Below are positions 1 to 16,389 of a stretch of 64,000 nt of DNA, one piece after another. Position 1 is the stretch's first letter; each line of letters opens with the position of its first letter. The notes under the pieces are model-generated. The model saw only the letters and a program-made list of their open reading frames with translations, had not been told where the DNA came from and did no database searches. The DNA is from Paenibacillus sp. FSL R10-2782 (GTDB taxonomy: Bacteria > Bacillota > Bacilli > Paenibacillales > Paenibacillaceae). The position numbers and the translations under genes are program-made. The stretch lies in contig NZ_CP151951.1 in the NCBI RefSeq assembly GCF_038592985.1, positions 5,539,821 through 5,603,820 on the forward strand, given 5' to 3'.

Positions 1-150
1 TGCCCGGGCTTCACCGCGACGGACCTCAACAACTTTGAAGGCACGGGCACCGTCGAGCAGGCTGCTCGTCATCCCGTACGCCTTGCAATGCTCGGCGAGG
101 ACGGTCCGACGGGAACATTCTCAAACGAGAGACGCCAGCTCCCTTGGTGA
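1..150 (+). CDS. C-terminal fragment of a short-chain dehydrogenase/reductase (SDR), cut by the window edge
   Basis: Frame 1 is open from the first base to a TGA at 148-150 and encodes 49 residues beginning CPGFTATDLN and ending RRQLPW. The CPG-(F/Y)-T-A-T-DL segment followed by a GTVEQAARHPVRLA helix and a GPTGTF tail is the usual end of classical NAD(P)-dependent SDR carbonyl reductases, so the catalytic Tyr-Lys and the Rossmann fold lie outside the window. Third codon positions are almost all G or C, unlike the aldo/keto reductase gene that follows, which suggests a different origin. The substrate cannot be told. Confidence 0.7.
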   Translation, partial: CPGFTATDLNNFEGTGTVEQAARHPVRLAMLGEDGPTGTFSNERRQLPW

Positions 151-240
151 TTTAATCTCGAGCACTGGCTCGCCAGAAAATGCGTGAACAACCTGAAGGC
201 GTGACCCTTCCCTATATACACTTAAGGAGTGTGTTATCAA

Positions 241-1212
241 ATGGAATATGTAAAACTTGGACGCAGCGGATTGGAAATTTCAAAGTTAAGCCTTGGAACC
301 ATGAGCTTCGGAGTACCTGAAAGTGGCAATACCCCGTGGTCGTTAAATGAAGAGCAAAGCAGACCGATCATTAATAAAGCACTGGAATTGGGCATCAACT
401 TTTTCAGTACCGCCAATATGTATTCCGATGGAACAAGCGAAGAAATTCTCGGACGTGCCTTAAAGGACTTCGCTCGTCGTGACGAAGTCGTCATTGCTAC
501 AAAGGTATTTGTTCCGATGCGTAAGGGTCCGAATGCGATGGGACTTTCCCGTAAAGCCATCATGACCGAAATTGATAACAGTCTAAAACGGCTTGGAACG
601 GACTACATCGATTTGTACCAGATCCATCGTTGGGATCCACATACGCCAATTGAGGAGACAATGGAGGCTCTTCACGATTTAGTTAAGGCAGGCAAGGTCA
701 GATACATCGGAGCATCCTCCATGCTGGCATGGCAGTTTGCGAAAGCTCAGCATGTCGCGAAGCGAAATGGCTGGACACGGTTCGTTTCCATGGAAAATAG
801 ACTTAATTTGCTCTATCGGGAAGAAGAAAGGGAAATGCTCCCCCTTTGCAAAGATGAGGGAGTTGGCGTCACTCCTTACCTGCCTTTGGCTGCAGGCCGG
901 TTAACCCGGGATTGGAATGAGCAGACCTCGCGATCCGAGAATGACCAGGTAGCAAAGGCGTTGTTTTCAAGAACGGAAGAAGCTGATCGCAAAGTTGCGG
1001 CAAGAGTTGCGGAAGTTGCCGCTACCCGAGGCCTGCCACGCGCACAAATTGCACTTGCGTGGTTGTTGCAAAAAGAAGAGATCACAGCACCGATTATCGG
1101 GTCGACCAAGATCAGCCATCTCGAAGATGCTGTTTCGGCATTGTCGGTTAAATTGACAGCTGAAGAAATCACGAGTTTAGAAGAACTTTATGTACCGCAT
1201 CCACTAGTATAA
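241..1212 (+). CDS. Aldo/keto reductase
   Basis: Product of 323 residues, the normal length of a (beta/alpha)8 NADPH-dependent aldo/keto reductase. Visible are the N-terminal LGRSGLEISKLSLGTMSFG strand, the catalytic Asp/Tyr region (FFSTANMYSDGTSEEILG), the Lys-bearing segment VIATKVF, the YIDLYQIHRWD strand and the C-terminal cofactor motif APIIGSTKISHLEDAVSAL. The ATG at 241 is preferred over an upstream in-frame GTG at 229 because AAGGAG at 224-229 lies 11 bases before 241 and overlaps the GTG. It follows the SDR fragment by about 90 bases on the same strand. A second aldo/keto reductase lies 1.1 kb downstream, but the two are only family-level relatives. Confidence 0.9.
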   Translation: MEYVKLGRSGLEISKLSLGTMSFGVPESGNTPWSLNEEQSRPIINKALELGINFFSTANMYSDGTSEEILGRALKDFARRDEVVIATKVFVPMRKGPNAMGLSRKAIMTEIDNSLKRLGTDYIDLYQIHRWDPHTPIEETMEALHDLVKAGKVRYIGASSMLAWQFAKAQHVAKRNGWTRFVSMENRLNLLYREEEREMLPLCKDEGVGVTPYLPLAAGRLTRDWNEQTSRSENDQVAKALFSRTEEADRKVAARVAEVAATRGLPRAQIALAWLLQKEEITAPIIGSTKISHLEDAVSALSVKLTAEEITSLEELYVPHPLV

Positions 1213-1382: not shown

Positions 1383-1410
1383 GCCGTCACTTATGGTACG
1401 GTTCTCCGCG
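1383..1410 (-). repeat. Duplicated rlmH 3' end: candidate distal att site of an SCC-like element
   Basis: Read on the minus strand, this stretch translates as RGEPYHK followed by TGA, identical in protein sequence to the last seven residues of RlmH encoded at 4337-4360. The shared 14-base core TTATGGTACGGTTC is at 1391-1404 and 4341-4354. Over the 28 bases 1383-1410 against 4333-4360 I count 24 identities. Upstream codons on the minus strand no longer resemble RlmH. SCC elements of staphylococci recombine at exactly this 3' end of rlmH and leave such copies as direct repeats. Confidence 0.7.
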
Positions 1411-1472
1411 CTGTCTGTAACGGCAAGTTTTTGTCGAAGCTCCTTTCTGCACAGAGTATGGCCCAACATTTG

Positions 1473-1817
1473 TTACCGTAACTGATGAGGTTCTTTAGCT
1501 GAAAATGTAGAAGGAATCTCTCCATCAGAGTAGTAGCGGATTGCCTTACCCGTTTTTCCAGCATACTCAATCTCATTTCTTGTGCTGTTGCCAATGTAGC
1601 CATTTACATCAATCACGAAGATTTCGTCAGAAATATCAATCTTTCTAAAATGGAGATCTCCCAGTAACTCCGCTTGTTCTTCTGTGATTTCAAAACTTTC
1701 AGTTTGTTCAAAGAAGGCTACACTAATCACTATGTTCCCTTGTAGTGTAAGAAATGCATTAGCTTGTCCAAATTGCTCCTTGAATTTTGTAGAACCGCAT
1801 AAAGTAATTATTTTCAT
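1473..1817 (-). CDS. Small nucleoside 2-deoxyribosyltransferase-like protein
   Basis: Product of 114 residues starting MKIITLCGSTKF. The opening beta-strand plus LCGSTKFKEQFGQA, the central acidic strand ISDEIFVIDVNGYIG and the S-x-x-x-E-I-EYA helix match the small Rossmann-like proteins related to nucleoside 2-deoxyribosyltransferases (DUF4406-type), often annotated only as hypothetical. The ATG at 1817 is chosen because the AAGGAT at its 5' side has normal spacing to it, whereas the ATG two codons upstream touches that site. It is encoded opposite to both reductase genes, inside the segment bounded by the rlmH-end repeats. The reaction and substrate are not established. Confidence 0.65.
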   Translation of the reverse strand: MKIITLCGSTKFKEQFGQANAFLTLQGNIVISVAFFEQTESFEITEEQAELLGDLHFRKIDISDEIFVIDVNGYIGNSTRNEIEYAGKTGKAIRYYSDGEIPSTFSAKEPHQLR

Positions 1818-2324
1818 AAGCATATCCTTCCTGAGCCGTTTTAAATGGTTTTTCAGGTTCTACACGAAACATAGTGCTTGAAACCAATGATTTGTTATGC
1901 TTTAATCCATAAAATATGGAAAAATATCTGTACATTCCGTAAGATGGTTGTACGAGCAATCCAACTTGAGGGAGTGACAGATGCACAAACAGTATACCCG
2001 AAATCCGTTGTCATGGATTTAGCTCCCTATTACCATACCTGGTGGAGGAATGCAACCAACCACGTTATGCTCATTAACATGTGTGGCTCAAAACCTCAAG
2101 AACTAACTTTGGTGTAGAGCCTATTAATTCATATTAAATTTTGTACATTCTCGCACTTTATCCTTCTTTTTCATGATTAAGCTCTTGACTGTTGTATATA
2201 ACTCCTATAAACTCATGTCCAAATAGCAATTGAAATTATTATATATAATACTATTATAAGTTAATTTCAAACTGCTAGAGTTTAGTAAAGAAAGAAATTA
2301 CATAGGAATAGGAGATCGAATAAA
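1818..2324. other. AT-rich intergenic region with candidate promoter and inverted repeat for the second reductase
   Basis: No convincing gene lies in these 500 bases. An inverted repeat of TTGAAATTA (2230-2238) and TAATTTCAA (2262-2270) flanks an AT-rich tract. TTGAAA at 2230 and TATTAT at 2252 could form a -35/-10 pair with 16-base spacing, which would place one arm of the repeat on the -35 box. Open frames at 1878-2117 (plus) and 1759-1986 (minus) resemble nothing I recognise and have no ribosome binding site. Confidence 0.35.
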
Positions 2325-3287
2325 ATGAGACAACTATCTTTAGGAAAATCAGGACCGCAGGTGAGCGCTCTATGTCTTGGTTGTCTAAACTTCGGTACGA
2401 ATACCGACAAAAGCTTATCGTATCGACTACTGGATCAATATGTGGAGGCAGGAGGTAACTTTCTGGATACTTCCAACAACTATGCCTTTTGGAATGGAAC
2501 CGGAGTAGGCGGACAAAGCGAGACCTTGCTGGGAGAATGGATGAAGGAACAAGGAAACCGGAATCGCATCTTTCTGGCAACCAAAGTTGGAGCGAACCCA
2601 ACCATTCCCGGTGGCGGCTTTTCTTCTAAAGAAGGGTTGTCCAAAAAGGCCATTCATAAAGCGGTTGATGAAAGCCTCAAGCGGCTGCAAACCGATTATA
2701 TTGATTTGTATTACGCCCATATCGACGATATGGATGTCCCTCTGGAGGTAACGCTCGAGGCCTTCAATCAATTAGTACAATCCGGCAAAGTAGGGGCCAT
2801 CGGATGCAGTAACCATTACACCTGGCGGCTTGAAGAAGCAAGAAGTATTAGTCAATCCCACGGTTTTGCTTCCTATCAATGTATTCAGCAGAGATATACC
2901 TATTTGCGCCCTAGACCAGGCGCCGACTTCGATGTACAGCTCAGCGTTTCGGAGGAAATGCTCAAATATATTGAGACCCATGAGGAAATCGCTTTACTTG
3001 CCTATTCACCTCTGTTGAACGGTGCGTACAGCCGCCAGGATCGTCCAATTCCTGTGCAATACGCTGGCCTAGATGCTGAGACAAGAATTTCCGTTTTACA
3101 AGAAATCTCCAAAGAAACGGGCGCAACGCATAATCAGGTAGTCCTCGCTTGGATGCTGAGTAACTCCCCGGTTATCCTGCCGTTAATTGCAGCAAGCTCA
3201 ACGGAACAGCTTCAGGAGAACCTACAGGCACTCGATGTAACGCTTACTCAGGAGCAGATTAAAAGGTTAAATGAAGCAACCTATTAA
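2325..3287 (+). CDS. Aldo/keto reductase, second copy
   Basis: Product of 320 residues with full-length AKR architecture: LGKSGPQVSALCLGCLNFGT at the N-terminus, the Asp/Tyr region (GNFLDTSNNYAFW), the Lys segment IFLATKVG, YIDLYYAHIDDMD with the expected His, and a C-terminal LPLIAASSTEQLQENLQAL cofactor site. The GGAATAGGAG sequence before the ATG supports the start. It is flanked by the divergent small nucleotide-metabolism-like gene and the recombinase remnant and lies within the putative SCC-like segment, so it is probably cargo. Oxidoreductases of this type often act on sugar or xenobiotic carbonyls; the real substrate is unknown. Confidence 0.88.
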   Translation: MRQLSLGKSGPQVSALCLGCLNFGTNTDKSLSYRLLDQYVEAGGNFLDTSNNYAFWNGTGVGGQSETLLGEWMKEQGNRNRIFLATKVGANPTIPGGGFSSKEGLSKKAIHKAVDESLKRLQTDYIDLYYAHIDDMDVPLEVTLEAFNQLVQSGKVGAIGCSNHYTWRLEEARSISQSHGFASYQCIQQRYTYLRPRPGADFDVQLSVSEEMLKYIETHEEIALLAYSPLLNGAYSRQDRPIPVQYAGLDAETRISVLQEISKETGATHNQVVLAWMLSNSPVILPLIAASSTEQLQENLQALDVTLTQEQIKRLNEATY

Positions 3288-3422
3288 AATATTAGCTGAA
3301 TAAATTTGATTGTGAGGGTGTCCCCTATGAATAGGGAAAATGATCCGCTCCGTTCCCATTCTGGGATCAGCTAGTTCTCCTTTGCAGAAGTCCAATGGGA
3401 TTAAGCCTCTTTTACGTATGGA

Positions 3423-4178
3423 ACCTATTTGTTGACCGGAATGATGCGTTGCCCTGACTGCGGAGCCACGCTTGTCGCACATCGAATTCATGATACGCTC
3501 AAGGATGGAACCAAGGTTGTACGGCGATACTACATTTGCAGCAACTTCCGTGCTAAAGGTAGCCGCGTTTGTACTTCAAACAGTGTGAAGGCTGACATGG
3601 CTGAGCAATATGTAACCGACCGAATTGCTGCCGTTGTGAGAAAGCCTAAGATATTGGAGGACATCGTGGCACGAATCAATAATAACCGTACAGTGAATGT
3701 CGTCCCTCTCCAAAAAGAACTAGCTTCCGTTGACAAGGAGCTTGGAACGTTGGATGCCCAAAAGAAGAAATACTTCAAGCTCTACGAAGCCGATGTTGTT
3801 GATAATGAATTTCTAATCCAGCGTATGAATGAACTTAAGCAGCAGCATGAAGCACTGACAAGAAGAAGGCAAGAGGCCTTACGACAGCTTGAACGAAGCT
3901 CCGCTGACCCGGTTCCGCTGCATCAAGTAAAGCAGGAACTGTCTCAATTCCATGAGTTGTTATCGTCAACACCGATTGAAACACAAAAGAACCTGCTTCA
4001 GATCATCGTGAAGCAGATTCATGTGAAGAAAGGCCAGAAAATCGAAGGCATCGAATTGGAGTTCGATGATAAAGTCAATGCGTGTTTTTTAGGATATGCC
4101 CCTTCCACCCAAACGGTGGCAGGGGCTTTTGCTTTTCCCAAGCAAAAGTTCAACGCTCTGTACACTATCGTCATTTGA
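3423..4178 (+). pseudogene. C-terminal remnant of a large serine recombinase
   Basis: The open frame begins directly after an in-frame stop at 3420-3422 with TYLLTGMMRCPDCGATLV, the start of the zinc-ribbon domain of large serine recombinases (CPDCGA followed by CSNFRAKGSRVCTSN supplies the four cysteines). A long coiled-coil region follows (about residues 85-160, VPLQKELASVDKELGTLDAQ), then the family's C-terminal KQIHVKKGQKIEGIELEF segment. The N-terminal catalytic resolvase domain with its nucleophilic serine, about 250-300 residues, is missing upstream, and no ribosome binding site precedes the frame. It lies 160 bases from the 3' end of rlmH, where such enzymes integrate SCC elements. 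It cannot be catalytically active as it stands. Confidence 0.85.
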
Positions 4179-4332
4179 TGCCAAATAGGAATAAGTCATG
4201 GACAGCTCCATGCCCTCAAATCACAGCACATTGCCTTTGTAGCAGGCTTTTTCACAGAAAGTGACTTAGGGTAAACCCTTGCCATGCTAATCTTTTTCCA
4301 CGCCTTTTAAGCAGTTCCCCAACAAAAAACAT

Positions 4333-4360
4333 GCCGTTATTTATGGTACGGTTCACCCCG
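4333..4360 (-). repeat. Candidate proximal att site within the rlmH 3' end
   Basis: This is the chromosomal copy of the repeat described at 1383-1410: the last seven codons plus stop of rlmH, RGEPYHK-TAA. The staphylococcal SCC attachment site occupies the homologous codons. The two copies are in the same orientation, 2,950 bases apart, and bracket the recombinase remnant, the second aldo/keto reductase and the deoxyribosyltransferase-like gene. Confidence 0.7.
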
Positions 4361-4816
4361 ATTAATCTTCACCGCTCGGTAAATCTGTTCCACCAGCACC
4401 AGCCGCATCAGTTGATGAGGCAAGGTCATCCTTCCGAAGCTCAGCTTCTGCTGGGCGCGACGGAGGACTTCGTCAGAGAGGCCGTGGCTGCCGCCAATGA
4501 CGAAGACAACATGGCTTGTACCGTAGGTGCCGAGCTTATCCAATCCCTCCGCAAGTTCTTCCGAGCTCCAGAGCTTGCCGTCGATGGCGAGCACAATGAC
4601 ATGTGCCTCACTCTTCACATGGGCAAGGATGCGCTCGCCTTCCCGCTCCTTGACCTGTCGAACTTCCGCTTCGCTCAGTGTGTCAGGAGCCTTTTCATCG
4701 GCTACCTCGATCATTTGGAACTTAATGTATGGCCCTAGCCGTTTAGCATATTCCTGAATTCCCATGACCAAATACTTCTCTTTTAACTTGCCAACACCTA
4801 TAAGTTGAATAAACAA
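4337..4816 (-). CDS. rlmH: 23S rRNA (pseudouridine-1915 N3)-methyltransferase RlmH
   Basis: Product of 159 residues, the standard RlmH length. It uses SAM to methylate pseudouridine 1915 in helix 69 of 23S rRNA on the assembled ribosome. The SPOUT fold is evident: the N-terminal (M)[15 protein letters not shown] strand, [18 protein letters not shown], the knot motif [38 protein letters not shown] and the C-terminus RGEPYHK. The start is a TTG at 4816 with AGGGGT upstream at good spacing. The gene is intact although recombination seems to have occurred at its last codons; the target codons were rebuilt by the element's end. Confidence 0.97.
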
Positions 4817-6808: not shown

Positions 6809-6826
6809 AACCTTTTATAAAAATAC

Positions 6827-7315
6827 TCAAGCGTACAACATAAAAAAGCTCACTTCATGTCCCAGTTGCTTCAGATAATTATAAATCTGGGAACGATGAT
6901 GGAATACATGGGTCATGGTCTCAATCTGCCATTGGACCTGCAAATGTCCATGCTCCATATAAAAGGCTTTGGTCGAACGATTCAGATAATCCTCTTCGCT
7001 GAGCGAAAGAATGTAAGCCTTATAGGCCTCAAAATTCTCCCTGAAACTTGCAGCCAAGCGTTCGGGATCGTTTATCTCGGACAGGCTGTTTTCAATGCTT
7101 CCCACTTCACCCTCAGACTTCTCCTGCATGATCGCAAGATCCGAAGCAGGAATAAGCACAAAGTGATGTACTAACTCCAGCAGCGAGCGGAAATTGTCCT
7201 GCGGGCGAAATTCCCAATCCTCTGGACGTATTTTACGGATCAAGGCTTCCCCCGTCCGTACTCCGGTCTCCAGCTCATTCAGCAAATGATCTCGAACTTG
7301 CAGCGTTCCACTCAT
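6827..7315 (-). CDS. DinB-family protein
   Basis: Product of 162 residues from the ATG at 7315, which has GGAGAG upstream; the open frame extends further, but those residues overlap the neighbouring araC gene. It has the DinB four-helix bundle pattern with the metal-binding histidines of the family: LELVHHFVLIP near residue 45 and MTHVFHHRSQIYNYLKQLG near the C-terminus. Members are thiol- or metal-dependent transferases of mostly unknown substrate. It begins 28 bases after the AraC-type regulator gene on the same strand, so the two are probably one transcript and the regulator may respond to the compound that the enzyme handles. Confidence 0.85.
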   Translation of the reverse strand: MSGTLQVRDHLLNELETGVRTGEALIRKIRPEDWEFRPQDNFRSLLELVHHFVLIPASDLAIMQEKSEGEVGSIENSLSEINDPERLAASFRENFEAYKAYILSLSEEDYLNRSTKAFYMEHGHLQVQWQIETMTHVFHHRSQIYNYLKQLGHEVSFFMLYA

Positions 7316-15045: not shown

Positions 15046-16389
15046 TCACTTCTTTACCGCCTGAGATTGCTGCGTTTGCGCTGTACTCGACGTTGTCGCT
15101 GTTACGGCCACAGCGTGAATCTCTGCCACAGAACCGTCGCCCAACGTAACACGCCACTCGGGAACGAGCTTTAACCCATCATTGATCAGCTCCGGCTGAT
15201 ATACAGGGGTCAGATCTCTAATCGTTATCCCTTTAGCTACAGCTTCGAGCTGCTTCTTCAAGGTTTCGCCACCCGGAAGCATAACCTTCTTCGAGGATTG
15301 CTCGCCGCCCTTGAGATACAACAGCGAACGATCATAGACGGATGCCGTTTCCTGCTGGATTTCCAACAAAATCGTGCCAAACCGGAAGGATGGCGTATCC
15401 AGTACCGGATAAGATCCGTAATACTGCTGGAATAGCACATTGGTACGGCTCTCGTCGCTGCTTCTCATTTTCAACTGATACGAAGCATCCCAACCGCCAT
15501 GCTGATTCACAAAATCAACCGCCGCCAGTACATCCCTCACCGAACTGCTTCCGCCCGCCCCCGGTGCACTCGGATCGGTATAGCTCATCCAACGCTGCTC
15601 CTGCTTAATTTGCAGACTGCGCTTGCTGTCCGTGTAAATTTGGGAACCGTCCTTCTCCTGAATATTACGCGTAATCCCCGGATCGAAAAACAAATTCCGC
15701 TGCATCTGCTCTGTCGTGAACAACCCGGCATATACCACGGGCTGCACCGTCTCCAGGTTATCTGCCGGAATGTAATACTGATTATCCACCAGCTCGTACA
15801 ACGGGGCATTTTTAGCGAAATTCACATGCTGCCGGATATCCTCCATCGTCATATCAAACTGATTCGCCTCATACACTACATCGCCTCTGGCACTGAAAAA
15901 GAGGGCGTGCGGCTTGGCATTTTTCTCATCTATATAGATCCAGATACGATTAATCGTCTCTCCCTGAAACACAGAATCCGGCGTCAGACGCATAACTCGC
16001 TCCAGTAATGAAACCGGGACACCGCCTGAAAAGGATAATTCCATGCCCTCATTCTCGCTGCGAATCCGCGCCCAATCTGCCGACTGGATACTGCGACGTT
16101 GAAAGCTGTTAAAGCTCCGGCTCTCCAGCCGTGTAAAAATCAAATCGTAGAAAGCAACGCCCGGATAAAAAACGGTATGCTTGTTTTGCCCTTGGTGAAT
16201 TAGCATTTTATCAGGAAACACGAGCTTTTCAATCTTTTTCTCCTGTCCCATACTCTCGGTTTTGACATAGTTCGTCTCCGAGGTAAGTACAGAATCACTG
16301 CCTGGAAGACGGTAAATCAGAAAATAACTCTGTACAAGGCTGGAAGCAACCAGCAAAATAAGCGCCCATGACTTCAAACGTTCCCTCAC
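15046..16389 (-). CDS. walH: WalH (YycH), membrane regulator of WalK
   Basis: Product of 447 residues with a single N-terminal transmembrane helix (SWALILLVASSLVQSYFLIY) and a large extracytoplasmic part with the YycH pattern (WRVTLGDGSVAEIHAVAV near the end). The start codon overlaps the last bases of walK (16386-16389), indicating translational coupling. The C-terminal tail is rich in Thr, Ser and Gln, longer than strictly needed for the fold. Together with WalI it is expected to tune WalK in response to the state of the wall. Confidence 0.92.
   Translation of the reverse strand: MRERLKSWALILLVASSLVQSYFLIYRLPGSDSVLTSETNYVKTESMGQEKKIEKLVFPDKMLIHQGQNKHTVFYPGVAFYDLIFTRLESRSFNSFQRRSIQSADWARIRSENEGMELSFSGGVPVSLLERVMRLTPDSVFQGETINRIWIYIDEKNAKPHALFFSARGDVVYEANQFDMTMEDIRQHVNFAKNAPLYELVDNQYYIPADNLETVQPVVYAGLFTTEQMQRNLFFDPGITRNIQEKDGSQIYTDSKRSLQIKQEQRWMSYTDPSAPGAGGSSSVRDVLAAVDFVNQHGGWDASYQLKMRSSDESRTNVLFQQYYGSYPVLDTPSFRFGTILLEIQQETASVYDRSLLYLKGGEQSSKKVMLPGGETLKKQLEAVAKGITIRDLTPVYQPELINDGLKLVPEWRVTLGDGSVAEIHAVAVTATTSSTAQTQQSQAVKK

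Follow-up and report, generated by a model that had tools for sequence, protein, structure and literature searches.

A probable SCC-like cassette remnant heading a tandem array at the rlmH 3′ end of Paenibacillus

Repeats and cassettes behind rlmH

The window analysed here is a 64,000-nucleotide stretch of Paenibacillus sp. FSL R10-2782, the last 64 kb of the single 5.60-Mb contig of this genome (G000; genomes are cited below by G numbers and loci by L numbers). It contains rlmH, the only full-length copy found in G000, and a repeat of the 3′ end of this gene in the same orientation, at a spacing of 2,950 bases (Table 1). The two copies are equal at 24 of 28 bases, and at 16 of 18 bases within the codons EPYHK-stop. 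An exact 14-mer, GAACCGTACCATAA, occurs at just these two places in the 64 kb, both on the minus strand, and had no match in 100 shuffles even when one mismatch was allowed. A 25-base pattern built from both copies, searched with up to three mismatches, recovered the same two places and none in shuffles. The left copy is still readable as RGEPYHK-stop (TGA) and is preceded by sequence that is not rlmH. Direct comparison and shuffles thus bear out the repeat described in the initial annotation, with its 14-base core. The same annotation equated the repeat with the exact codon set used by staphylococcal cassette chromosome (SCC) elements, which is only close: GAACCGTACCATAAATAA is identical at 14 of 18 bases to the staphylococcal rlmH-end site, printed as GAAGCATATCATAAATGA in PMC8407400.

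The interval between the copies, cassette 1, reads in the direction of rlmH as rlmH - GAACCGTACCATAAATAA - CGGCATGTTTTTTG ... CAAAAACTTGCCGTTACAGACAGCGCGGA - GAACCGTACCATAAGTGA. Its ends carry an inverted repeat of 16–17 bases, unmentioned in the initial annotation, with a score of 13, the top value, which 3 of 96 cassettes attained. Cassette 1 encodes an aldo/keto reductase, a small protein of 116 amino acids and part of a large serine recombinase, for which CcrB is the best NCBIfam model. The recombinase remnant is encoded antisense to rlmH, with its end 158 bases away from the rlmH stop. It aligns to residues 291–529 of intact recombinases, with 60% identity in P. timonensis and 64% in P. 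silvestris, so the catalytic half is gone; both the recombinase remnant and the degenerate state of the element had been recognized in the initial annotation. No Cch-type helicase was found among the open reading frames (ORFs) of cassette 1, and no mec gene among the scanned ORFs of cassettes 1 and 2. We are confident that positions 1383–4360 are the decayed form of an SCC-like cassette and make up the unit nearest to rlmH in a tandem array at the 3′ end of this gene.

The array extends well beyond the window. A strict rlmH-end pattern has six matches in the genome, on a single strand and within a span of 36.3 kb: two fall in the window and the other four within the 32 kb left of it. The reversed control gave none. 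Besides rlmH there are five strict sites and, at one mismatch or fewer, nine sites within about 38 kb. The initial annotation had raised the possibility of a further copy left of base 1 and of a second tandem element left of 1383. Four strict copies do lie there, on the same strand, and the genes left of 1383 belong to cassette 2, bounded by the next site (genome 5538433–5538453, about 1.4 kb left of window base 1) and carrying genes for an aldo/keto reductase, a short-chain dehydrogenase and a MarR regulator. The tandem arrangement therefore stood, but not its scale of one or two elements. With rlmH-type queries, the only recombinase sequence detected in G000 was the cassette 1 remnant and small scraps; three PF07508 recombinases, full-length or nearly so, are encoded in other parts of the genome.

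The array also contains 152 bases that repeat, at 97% identity, the rlmH 5′ end together with the sequence upstream of it (L005:14486-14637, genome 5514486-5514637), next to an IS4-family transposase gene. This piece may be left over from a second rlmH since lost, or from an insertion sequence event.

Table 1 Features at rlmH in the window, sites in the wider genome and second rlmH genes in relatives
Feature	Position	Strand	Details
rlmH (23S rRNA pseudouridine-1915 N3-methyltransferase)	4337..4816	-	159 amino acids, intact, array anchor gene; ORF list
rlmH-end attachment-site copy	4333..4360	-	core GAACCGTACCATAAATAA at 4337-4354 (codons EPYHK-stop)
Second attachment-site copy, cassette 1/cassette 2 boundary	1383..1410	-	core GAACCGTACCATAAGTGA at 1387-1404
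Terminal inverted repeat, rlmH-proximal end	4323..4339	-	TAACGGCATGTTTTTTG on minus strand; overlaps rlmH stop
Terminal inverted repeat, distal end	1418..1433	+	taacggcaagtttttg on plus strand; part of class-A arm AAAACTTGCCGTTACAGACAGCGCGG
CcrB-family large serine recombinase, C-terminal half	3405..4178	+	NCBIfam CcrB 118 bits; Pfam zinc ribbon PF13408; tree, blastp
Aldo/keto reductase, cassette 1 cargo	2325..3287	+	PF00248, 220 bits
116-amino-acid ORF in cassette 1	1473..1823	-	no Pfam or NCBIfam match at E 0.001
Aldo/keto reductase, cassette 2 cargo	229..1212	+	PF00248, 273 bits
Short-chain dehydrogenase gene, 3′ end, cassette 2 cargo	1..150	+	genome 5539218-5539970
Strict sites (genome)	5544157 (rlmH), 5541207 (window 1387), 5538433, 5528491, 5528185, 5507871	same strand	strict pattern
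Further sites (genome)	~5525722, 5512747, 5508157, 5506210; one more 5497083		at most one mismatch
Spare rlmH copies	L027:15643-16044, L028:4291-4692, G063 neighbourhood 15178-15576; also L114, L119, L123, L124

Sites, recombinases and arms in relatives

Arrays of this kind are common in the genus. The strict pattern matched 62 of 75 genus genomes, many with 2–6 copies, and its reversed control matched none of the 75. DNA downstream of rlmH was taken from 65 of these genomes (1.28 Mb in total, mostly 19 kb each, ranging from 1.2 to 64 kb; G039, G043–G047, G064, G066, G069 and G073 were left out). With at most one mismatch, these neighbourhoods contained 162 sense sites (62 at rlmH and 100 elsewhere), 3 antisense sites and none in either of two reversed controls. 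Two or more sites were present in 40 of the 65 genomes and a single site in 25, and the 97 inter-site intervals had a median length of 3.3 kb. The rlmH flanks of G022, G005 and G048 were considered as bare chromosome and rejected, because tblastn revealed the C-terminal end of a G056-type recombinase there; we therefore do not claim that the single-site genomes are empty.

A looser pattern, applied genome-wide to 118 genomes of the family, gave 456 matches, rlmH ends included, against 11 for the reversed control; at least three matches were found in 63 genomes, spread over 13 of 19 genera. In the largest array examined (G174, C7:44804-150398), 17 same-strand sites lie in 106 kb behind rlmH, with no antisense and no reversed matches. 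They delimit sixteen stacked cassettes, in which a recombinase is present only as a 55-residue fragment (85% identical to that of G016). In some genomes same-strand site clusters also occur far from rlmH, as in G160 on C1 near 3560207-3564745 and 5047615-5079713 (rlmH at 6063956); it seems that arrays can exist at, or move to, other places in the chromosome.

Codon wobble at the sites was measured with a fixed 17-mer, since a wobble-allowing pattern would have been circular. At up to three mismatches, it recovered 97 non-rlmH sites, compared with 7 antisense and 2 and 2 reversed. In these 97 sites, of which related ones are not independent, mismatches numbered 125 at the five third positions of codons and 24 at the remaining ten positions of EPYHK. 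Judged from the sequences, such wobble outside rlmH would fit a site that had passed through an rlmH tail. The cassette ends are also related to each other: for intervals of at least 150 bases, inverted repeats of cognate ends scored a mean of 6.89 compared with 5.97 (s.d. 0.18) for permuted pairs, and none of 300 permutations scored as high.

Recombinases related to the remnant are located at rlmH. At an E value of 1e-10, relatives were found in 8 of the 75 genus genomes, and 11 of 12 matches lay within 20 kb of rlmH. Among the best 80 of 551 relatives in named genomes (79 loci), the retrieved locus included rlmH in 35 of the 40 closer relatives (L090–L128 and L130) compared with 2 of 39 more distant ones; the split, at about 37% identity, was set after seeing the list, with L127 (34%) counted as closer and L148 (38%, partial) as distant. 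Five closer relatives had no rlmH: L095, L126 and L127 lie on short contigs or contig ends, and L096 and L122 had room for the gene. In a quick tree of 55 hand-picked rows, all from outside the staphylococci, 39 rlmH-linked rows grouped together (support 90) with one unlinked row (L167) inside, and the remnant grouped with the enzymes of P. silvestris and P. timonensis and the second enzyme of P. chibensis (support 100). The CcrB model, with a cut-off of 900 bits, gave 378–431 bits for seven full-length rlmH-linked recombinases and 170–215 for six unlinked ones, one further unlinked sequence having been dropped for a stop codon inside the stretch; the second enzyme of the G016 pair scored 250 bits for CcrB and 287 for CcrC. 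With CcrB-family recombinases at the site in relatives, the suggestion in the initial annotation that serine recombinases use the rlmH end in Paenibacillus appears sound.

The intact recombinase genes of L097, L099 and G065 lie antisense beside rlmH, like the remnant, at distances of 260, 253 and 113 bases by ORF coordinates. In G063, G006 and G056, the open frame of the recombinase overlaps rlmH in antisense; frames of 691 and 702 amino acids in G063 (L026:9840-11915) and G006 (L027:1649-3757) pass the stop of their relatives and enter antisense rlmH. G016 has a recombinase pair, RadC and a Cch-like helicase (Cch1 210 bits, DUF927, Cch helix-turn-helix). The element of P. timonensis (L097) offers an intact counterpart to cassette 1. 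Two identical 18-base cores with class-A arms lie 6.8 kb apart and enclose a 556-amino-acid recombinase (L097:9959-11629) beside rlmH, a 510-amino-acid protein, an aldo/keto reductase, a MerR-type regulator and two small ORFs. In blastp, the reductase of this element shares 72% identity with that of cassette 2 and 33% with that of cassette 1.

The sequence arm adjoining the core follows the recombinase clade. Clade A (the window remnant, L097, L099 and L090) has [CG]GGCA. and then a T run beside rlmH, and AAA.TTGCCGTTACAG.CA.CGCGG at the far end. In clade C, comprising G065, G063, G006, G038 and Bacillaceae relatives, the arm beside rlmH is [AG]GGTAAA, and the four genus elements have TTTACC.TATC at the far end. 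Clade E (G056 and L109) has [AG]CACAAAG beside rlmH and, in G056, CTTTGTGC at the far end; clade F (G008, L098 and L100) has CGGCAACG beside rlmH and, in G008 and L098, CGTTGC at the far end. A Bacillaceae clade has the arm AGGCAAAAA in 10 of 10 cases. Arms are not uniform in the recombinase-pair group, in which L091, L092, L093 and L094 differ. For L106, L111, L117, L121, L128, L130, G006 and G038, the clade was assigned by hit rank or likeness and not by the tree, and these are weaker evidence for the match.

Most arrays are poor in recombinases. A search with ten queries at an E value of 1e-8, in neighbourhoods of mostly 19 kb, detected a piece of an rlmH-type recombinase in 8 of the 40 multi-site genus neighbourhoods and none in the other 32.

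Shared cassettes and second rlmH genes

Some cassettes are shared between different species, with the match beginning at a site. We listed 57 cassette pairs with at least 70% cover, from intervals of at least 800 bases, and used rlmH alone as a rough clock. Sixteen of the 57 exceed the identity of rlmH by at least 9 points. Seven of these 16 rows correspond to four distinct pairs in which the match begins 0–7 bases from the site and lies 10–16 points above rlmH: G032–G048 (96.4 versus 81.1), G021–G025 (91.4 versus 74.9), G021–G014 (92.3 versus 81.8) and G014–G010/G011, in which the first cassette of G010/G011 is the second of G014 (92% versus 81%). No recombinase piece lies inside any of the four.

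Few relatives of cassettes 1 and 2 were seen in the other 64 neighbourhoods: DNA matches were limited to G065 (0.86 kb), G014 (about 1.0 kb of cassette 2, inverted) and G063 (stretches shorter than 70 bases at arms or rlmH ends). The G065 match covers the first 864 bases of cassette 1 at 92% identity and begins 3 bases from the core; rlmH is 75% identical between the two genomes. In G065 this cassette-1-like DNA is separated from rlmH by 19.1 kb, an interval that contains an intact recombinase of clade C and a type III restriction system. The tail codons at its far site, TAC CAT AAA TAA, equal the rlmH tail of G000, and the rlmH of G065 itself ends TAT CAT AAG TGA. This fits a tail that was pushed outward; excision in the other lineage would look alike.

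G063 is a draft genome of the same species as G000, and we compared the two over a 31-kb rlmH region. They have a common ABC-F cassette (96%) and outer-array stretches (99%), and differ in the DNA between rlmH and the ABC-F cassette, which is 5.7 kb in G000 and 19.3 kb in G063. The initial annotation made its reading depend on the segment being absent from some relatives; G063 is without cassettes 1 and 2 and has other DNA there. Across the genus, first cassettes were matched over half their length in another genome less often than later ones (10 of 38 versus 29 of 51; Fisher p 0.005).

Longer 3′ fragments of rlmH were present at internal sites of G042 (6824-6910, 29 amino acids) and G054 (2217-2420, 68 amino acids), pointing to occasional capture of rlmH DNA.

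Some elements come with a complete second rlmH. We compared the RlmH tails of 102 sequences with rlmH, comprising 65 genus neighbourhoods and 37 named loci. The host tail is changed in seven: EPYRL in G006 and G038, EPYRF in G063, EPYIFQG in L114 and L119, EAYIF in L123 and EPYLV in L124. All seven neighbourhoods have a second complete rlmH ending in PYHK. The cases are not independent of each other (also, L094 appears to be the same organism as G016); the copies are of two types, which suggest at least two origins. Of the other 95 sequences, 93 have intact tails (PYHK or PYHR, and KYHK once, in L148), and within the stretch examined none of these contains a full second rlmH, only fragments of 24, 29 and 68 amino acids in G000, G042 and G054. 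The remaining two are G055, whose tail is frameshifted and which has no second copy, and L154, which matches only in part. A changed tail would presumably inactivate RlmH.

Mechanism, alternatives and known islands

These arrangements suggest the following scheme. A CcrB-type large serine recombinase would bring the site of a circular cassette together with the final codons of rlmH, with the crossover falling inside EPYHK-stop. The cassette would supply synonymous last codons, leaving RlmH intact, and the old tail would be displaced to the far end of the cassette, where it would form a new site. Repeated insertion at rlmH would then build an array with the newest unit adjoining rlmH. Because cassette 1 has lost the catalytic half of its recombinase and no other such recombinase was found in G000, the array could move only if the enzyme were supplied in trans. 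The sites, the inverted repeats, the sharing of cassettes between species from the site onwards, and the recombinase clade with its matching arm class are observed; how recombination proceeds, whether cassettes are mobilised in trans and in which order they arrived is what we infer from them.

We tentatively propose that in Paenibacillaceae these parts make up an integron-like system on an SCC chassis, a reading we regard as plausible and just short of probable. Small recombinase-less cassettes anchored at rlmH would be exchanged between species and pushed outward by the clade-matched Ccr-like recombinases of occasional autonomous elements, with an arm code for each clade and, in a subset of elements, a spare rlmH as insurance for a spoiled RlmH tail. 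Integrons likewise grow in a polar manner, as arrays of small recombinase-less cassettes beside an anchor site. The likeness is an analogy of architecture only, as integrons rely on an anchor-encoded tyrosine recombinase (IntI) and folded attC sites, whereas here the recombinases are large serine recombinases and the anchor is the end of a host gene.

Several observations weigh against the main reading, that of a decayed cassette in an array built by insertion at rlmH. Excision, a circle or integration was not observed, and the window element is without an intact recombinase, having only the C-terminal half. Every recombinase tested scores far under the curated Ccr cut-offs (900). At exactly two mismatches the excess of sense sites fades (14 sense, 11 antisense, 7 and 5 reversed), and the inverted-repeat signal comes from a minority, with 56 of 96 cassettes scoring 6 or less. 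G065 matches only the proximal 31% of cassette 1, a short inverted piece included, and no strain pair differing only by cassette 1 was found. Nine of the 16 high-identity pairs begin away from any detected site, and right ends agree less often. The crossover point is not fixed by the 22 pairs available, in which the bases of Lys and the stop travel with the cassette and the Tyr/His wobble does so weakly. A strict newest-first order would leave the outermost cassettes most widely matched; 14 of 37 were matched elsewhere, compared with 25 of 52 others, so no steady gradient is shown.

The best-surviving alternative is decay alone, in which each interval was once an autonomous element whose recombinase was later deleted, and recombinase-less cassettes never move. 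Remnants of the expected kind exist: besides cassette 1 of the window, they are found at the second site of G065, as C-terminal scraps next to rlmH in G005, G022 and G048, and as the 55-residue fragment of G174; moreover, intervals with intact recombinases are long (6.8 kb in P. timonensis and 19.1 kb in G065) relative to the overall median. Decay alone sits poorly with the 32 of 40 multi-site neighbourhoods that contain no recombinase piece, and with the four recombinase-free pairs that are 91–96% identical between species from the site onwards, with rlmH at 75–82%. As these pairs exceed rlmH in identity, they imply movement after the loss, through either a recombinase in trans or homologous recombination in the flanks. 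We consider decay alone unlikely.

A much less probable explanation is homologous recombination or gene conversion, in which copies of the rlmH end would arise by duplication and DNA would be traded through homology in the flanks, with no site-specific recombinase involved. The rare rlmH 3′ fragments of G042 and G054 and the 152-base copy in G000 show that ordinary recombination does occur here to some extent, and several high-identity stretches begin away from sites. The copies, however, share about 18 bases with rlmH and then continue into differing arms, and a group of related recombinases is located at rlmH. Chance, or an unrelated dispersed repeat (REP-like, a terminator or an integron attC), has next to nothing left in its favour beyond the short core and T-rich inverted repeats, given the absence of matches in shuffles, the 456 matches against 11 reversed, the strand ratio of 162 to 3 and the codon-like wobble.

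That SCC-like composite islands occur at rlmH is already known, one Paenibacillus included. Such islands are described in several Bacillota, with P. pinistramenti as a tandem composite (PMC10061031, 2023), and in Bacillus cereus, Geobacillus and Clostridioides, with Ccr-family recombinases (PMC10581047). The rlmH integration that the initial annotation inferred for Paenibacillus is supported, and was already in print for P. pinistramenti (PMC10061031). That island has the same rlmH site, two large serine recombinases and more than one rlmH-end repeat, and its contig NZ_VAWG01000004 was recovered among our recombinase relatives (L093). As presented in the sections of PMC10061031 we drew on, it is a single example picked for a polymerase–SSB pair, with no survey of cassettes, arms or recombinase-less units.

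Staphylococcal SCC and SCCmec elements, with their composite and pseudo-SCC forms, have in common with the array insertion near the rlmH end, last-codon repeats, degenerate inverted repeats, large serine recombinases and tandem composites (PMC10061031, PMC8407400). The arrays described here differ in belonging to another host family, in recombinases that reach 250–431 bits against CcrB and CcrC cut-offs of 900 and are often antisense directly beside rlmH, in extending to 17 sites and 106 kb, mostly recombinase-free, and in carrying no mec in cassettes 1 and 2. Enterococcus cassette chromosomes (ECCs) also have Ccr-family recombinases, and multiple attR in 16 of 32 (PMC6222049); in contrast to the arrays, they span 21–78 kb and, in the sections of that paper we drew on, show no long runs of small recombinase-less cassettes. 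The ccrDE island of S. brunensis, inserted in rimL, brings a second rimL copy, like the spare-rlmH elements, but its target is rimL and the portions of PMC10581047 that we used make no link between a spoiled tail and a spare copy.

We found no survey of such rlmH arrays in the open-access papers searched, most subscription papers and all preprints being outside that scope. As far as our searches show, the new aspects are the scale, the recombinase-poor arrays, the match between recombinase and arm, and the spare-rlmH elements. Most knowledge of SCC biology comes from methicillin-resistant staphylococci, and to our knowledge the origin of SCC recombinases and cassettes is an open question. The present results locate recombinases of the CcrB family, together with their sites, at rlmH across soil Bacillales, within a family whose arrays are common and can be sufficiently long to serve as a record of insertion. 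They also make testable the movement of recombinase-less cassettes in trans, the choice of recombinase by the arm and the spare gene as the price of a lost RlmH tail.

The cargo identifies the rlmH site as a store of accessory genes outside the clinic, given the ABC-F and tetracycline-protection-like genes in the array and the restriction–modification genes found in scanned elements with intact recombinases. In G000, the products of cassette 3 include an ABC-F protein, a tyrosine phosphatase, a phosphoesterase and regulators of the AraC and TetR types; ABC permeases and a solute-binding protein were recognized there by eye. Other cassettes encode a tetracycline-protection-like GTPase, an ECF-type sigma factor, an esterase, a GNAT protein and an FAD oxidoreductase, as well as a sortase and a large surface protein recognized by eye. 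Since the ABC-F protein (L006:16051-17790; 303 bits, cut-off 380) and the GTPase (L006:5804-7768; 414 bits, cut-off 775) both fall below their NCBIfam cut-offs, a role in resistance is only a guess. In P. timonensis, the 510-amino-acid protein (L097:8179-9711), encoded next to the recombinase, had no Pfam, NCBIfam or PDB match by sequence. It has 893 homologues at an E value of 1e-5, many of them longer, and a few of the longer ones are named as primase-domain proteins by their source; a helicase–primase role would be a guess. The G174 array carries seemingly ordinary metabolic and transport genes. The ABC-F cassette was found again at other array positions in G061 and G063.

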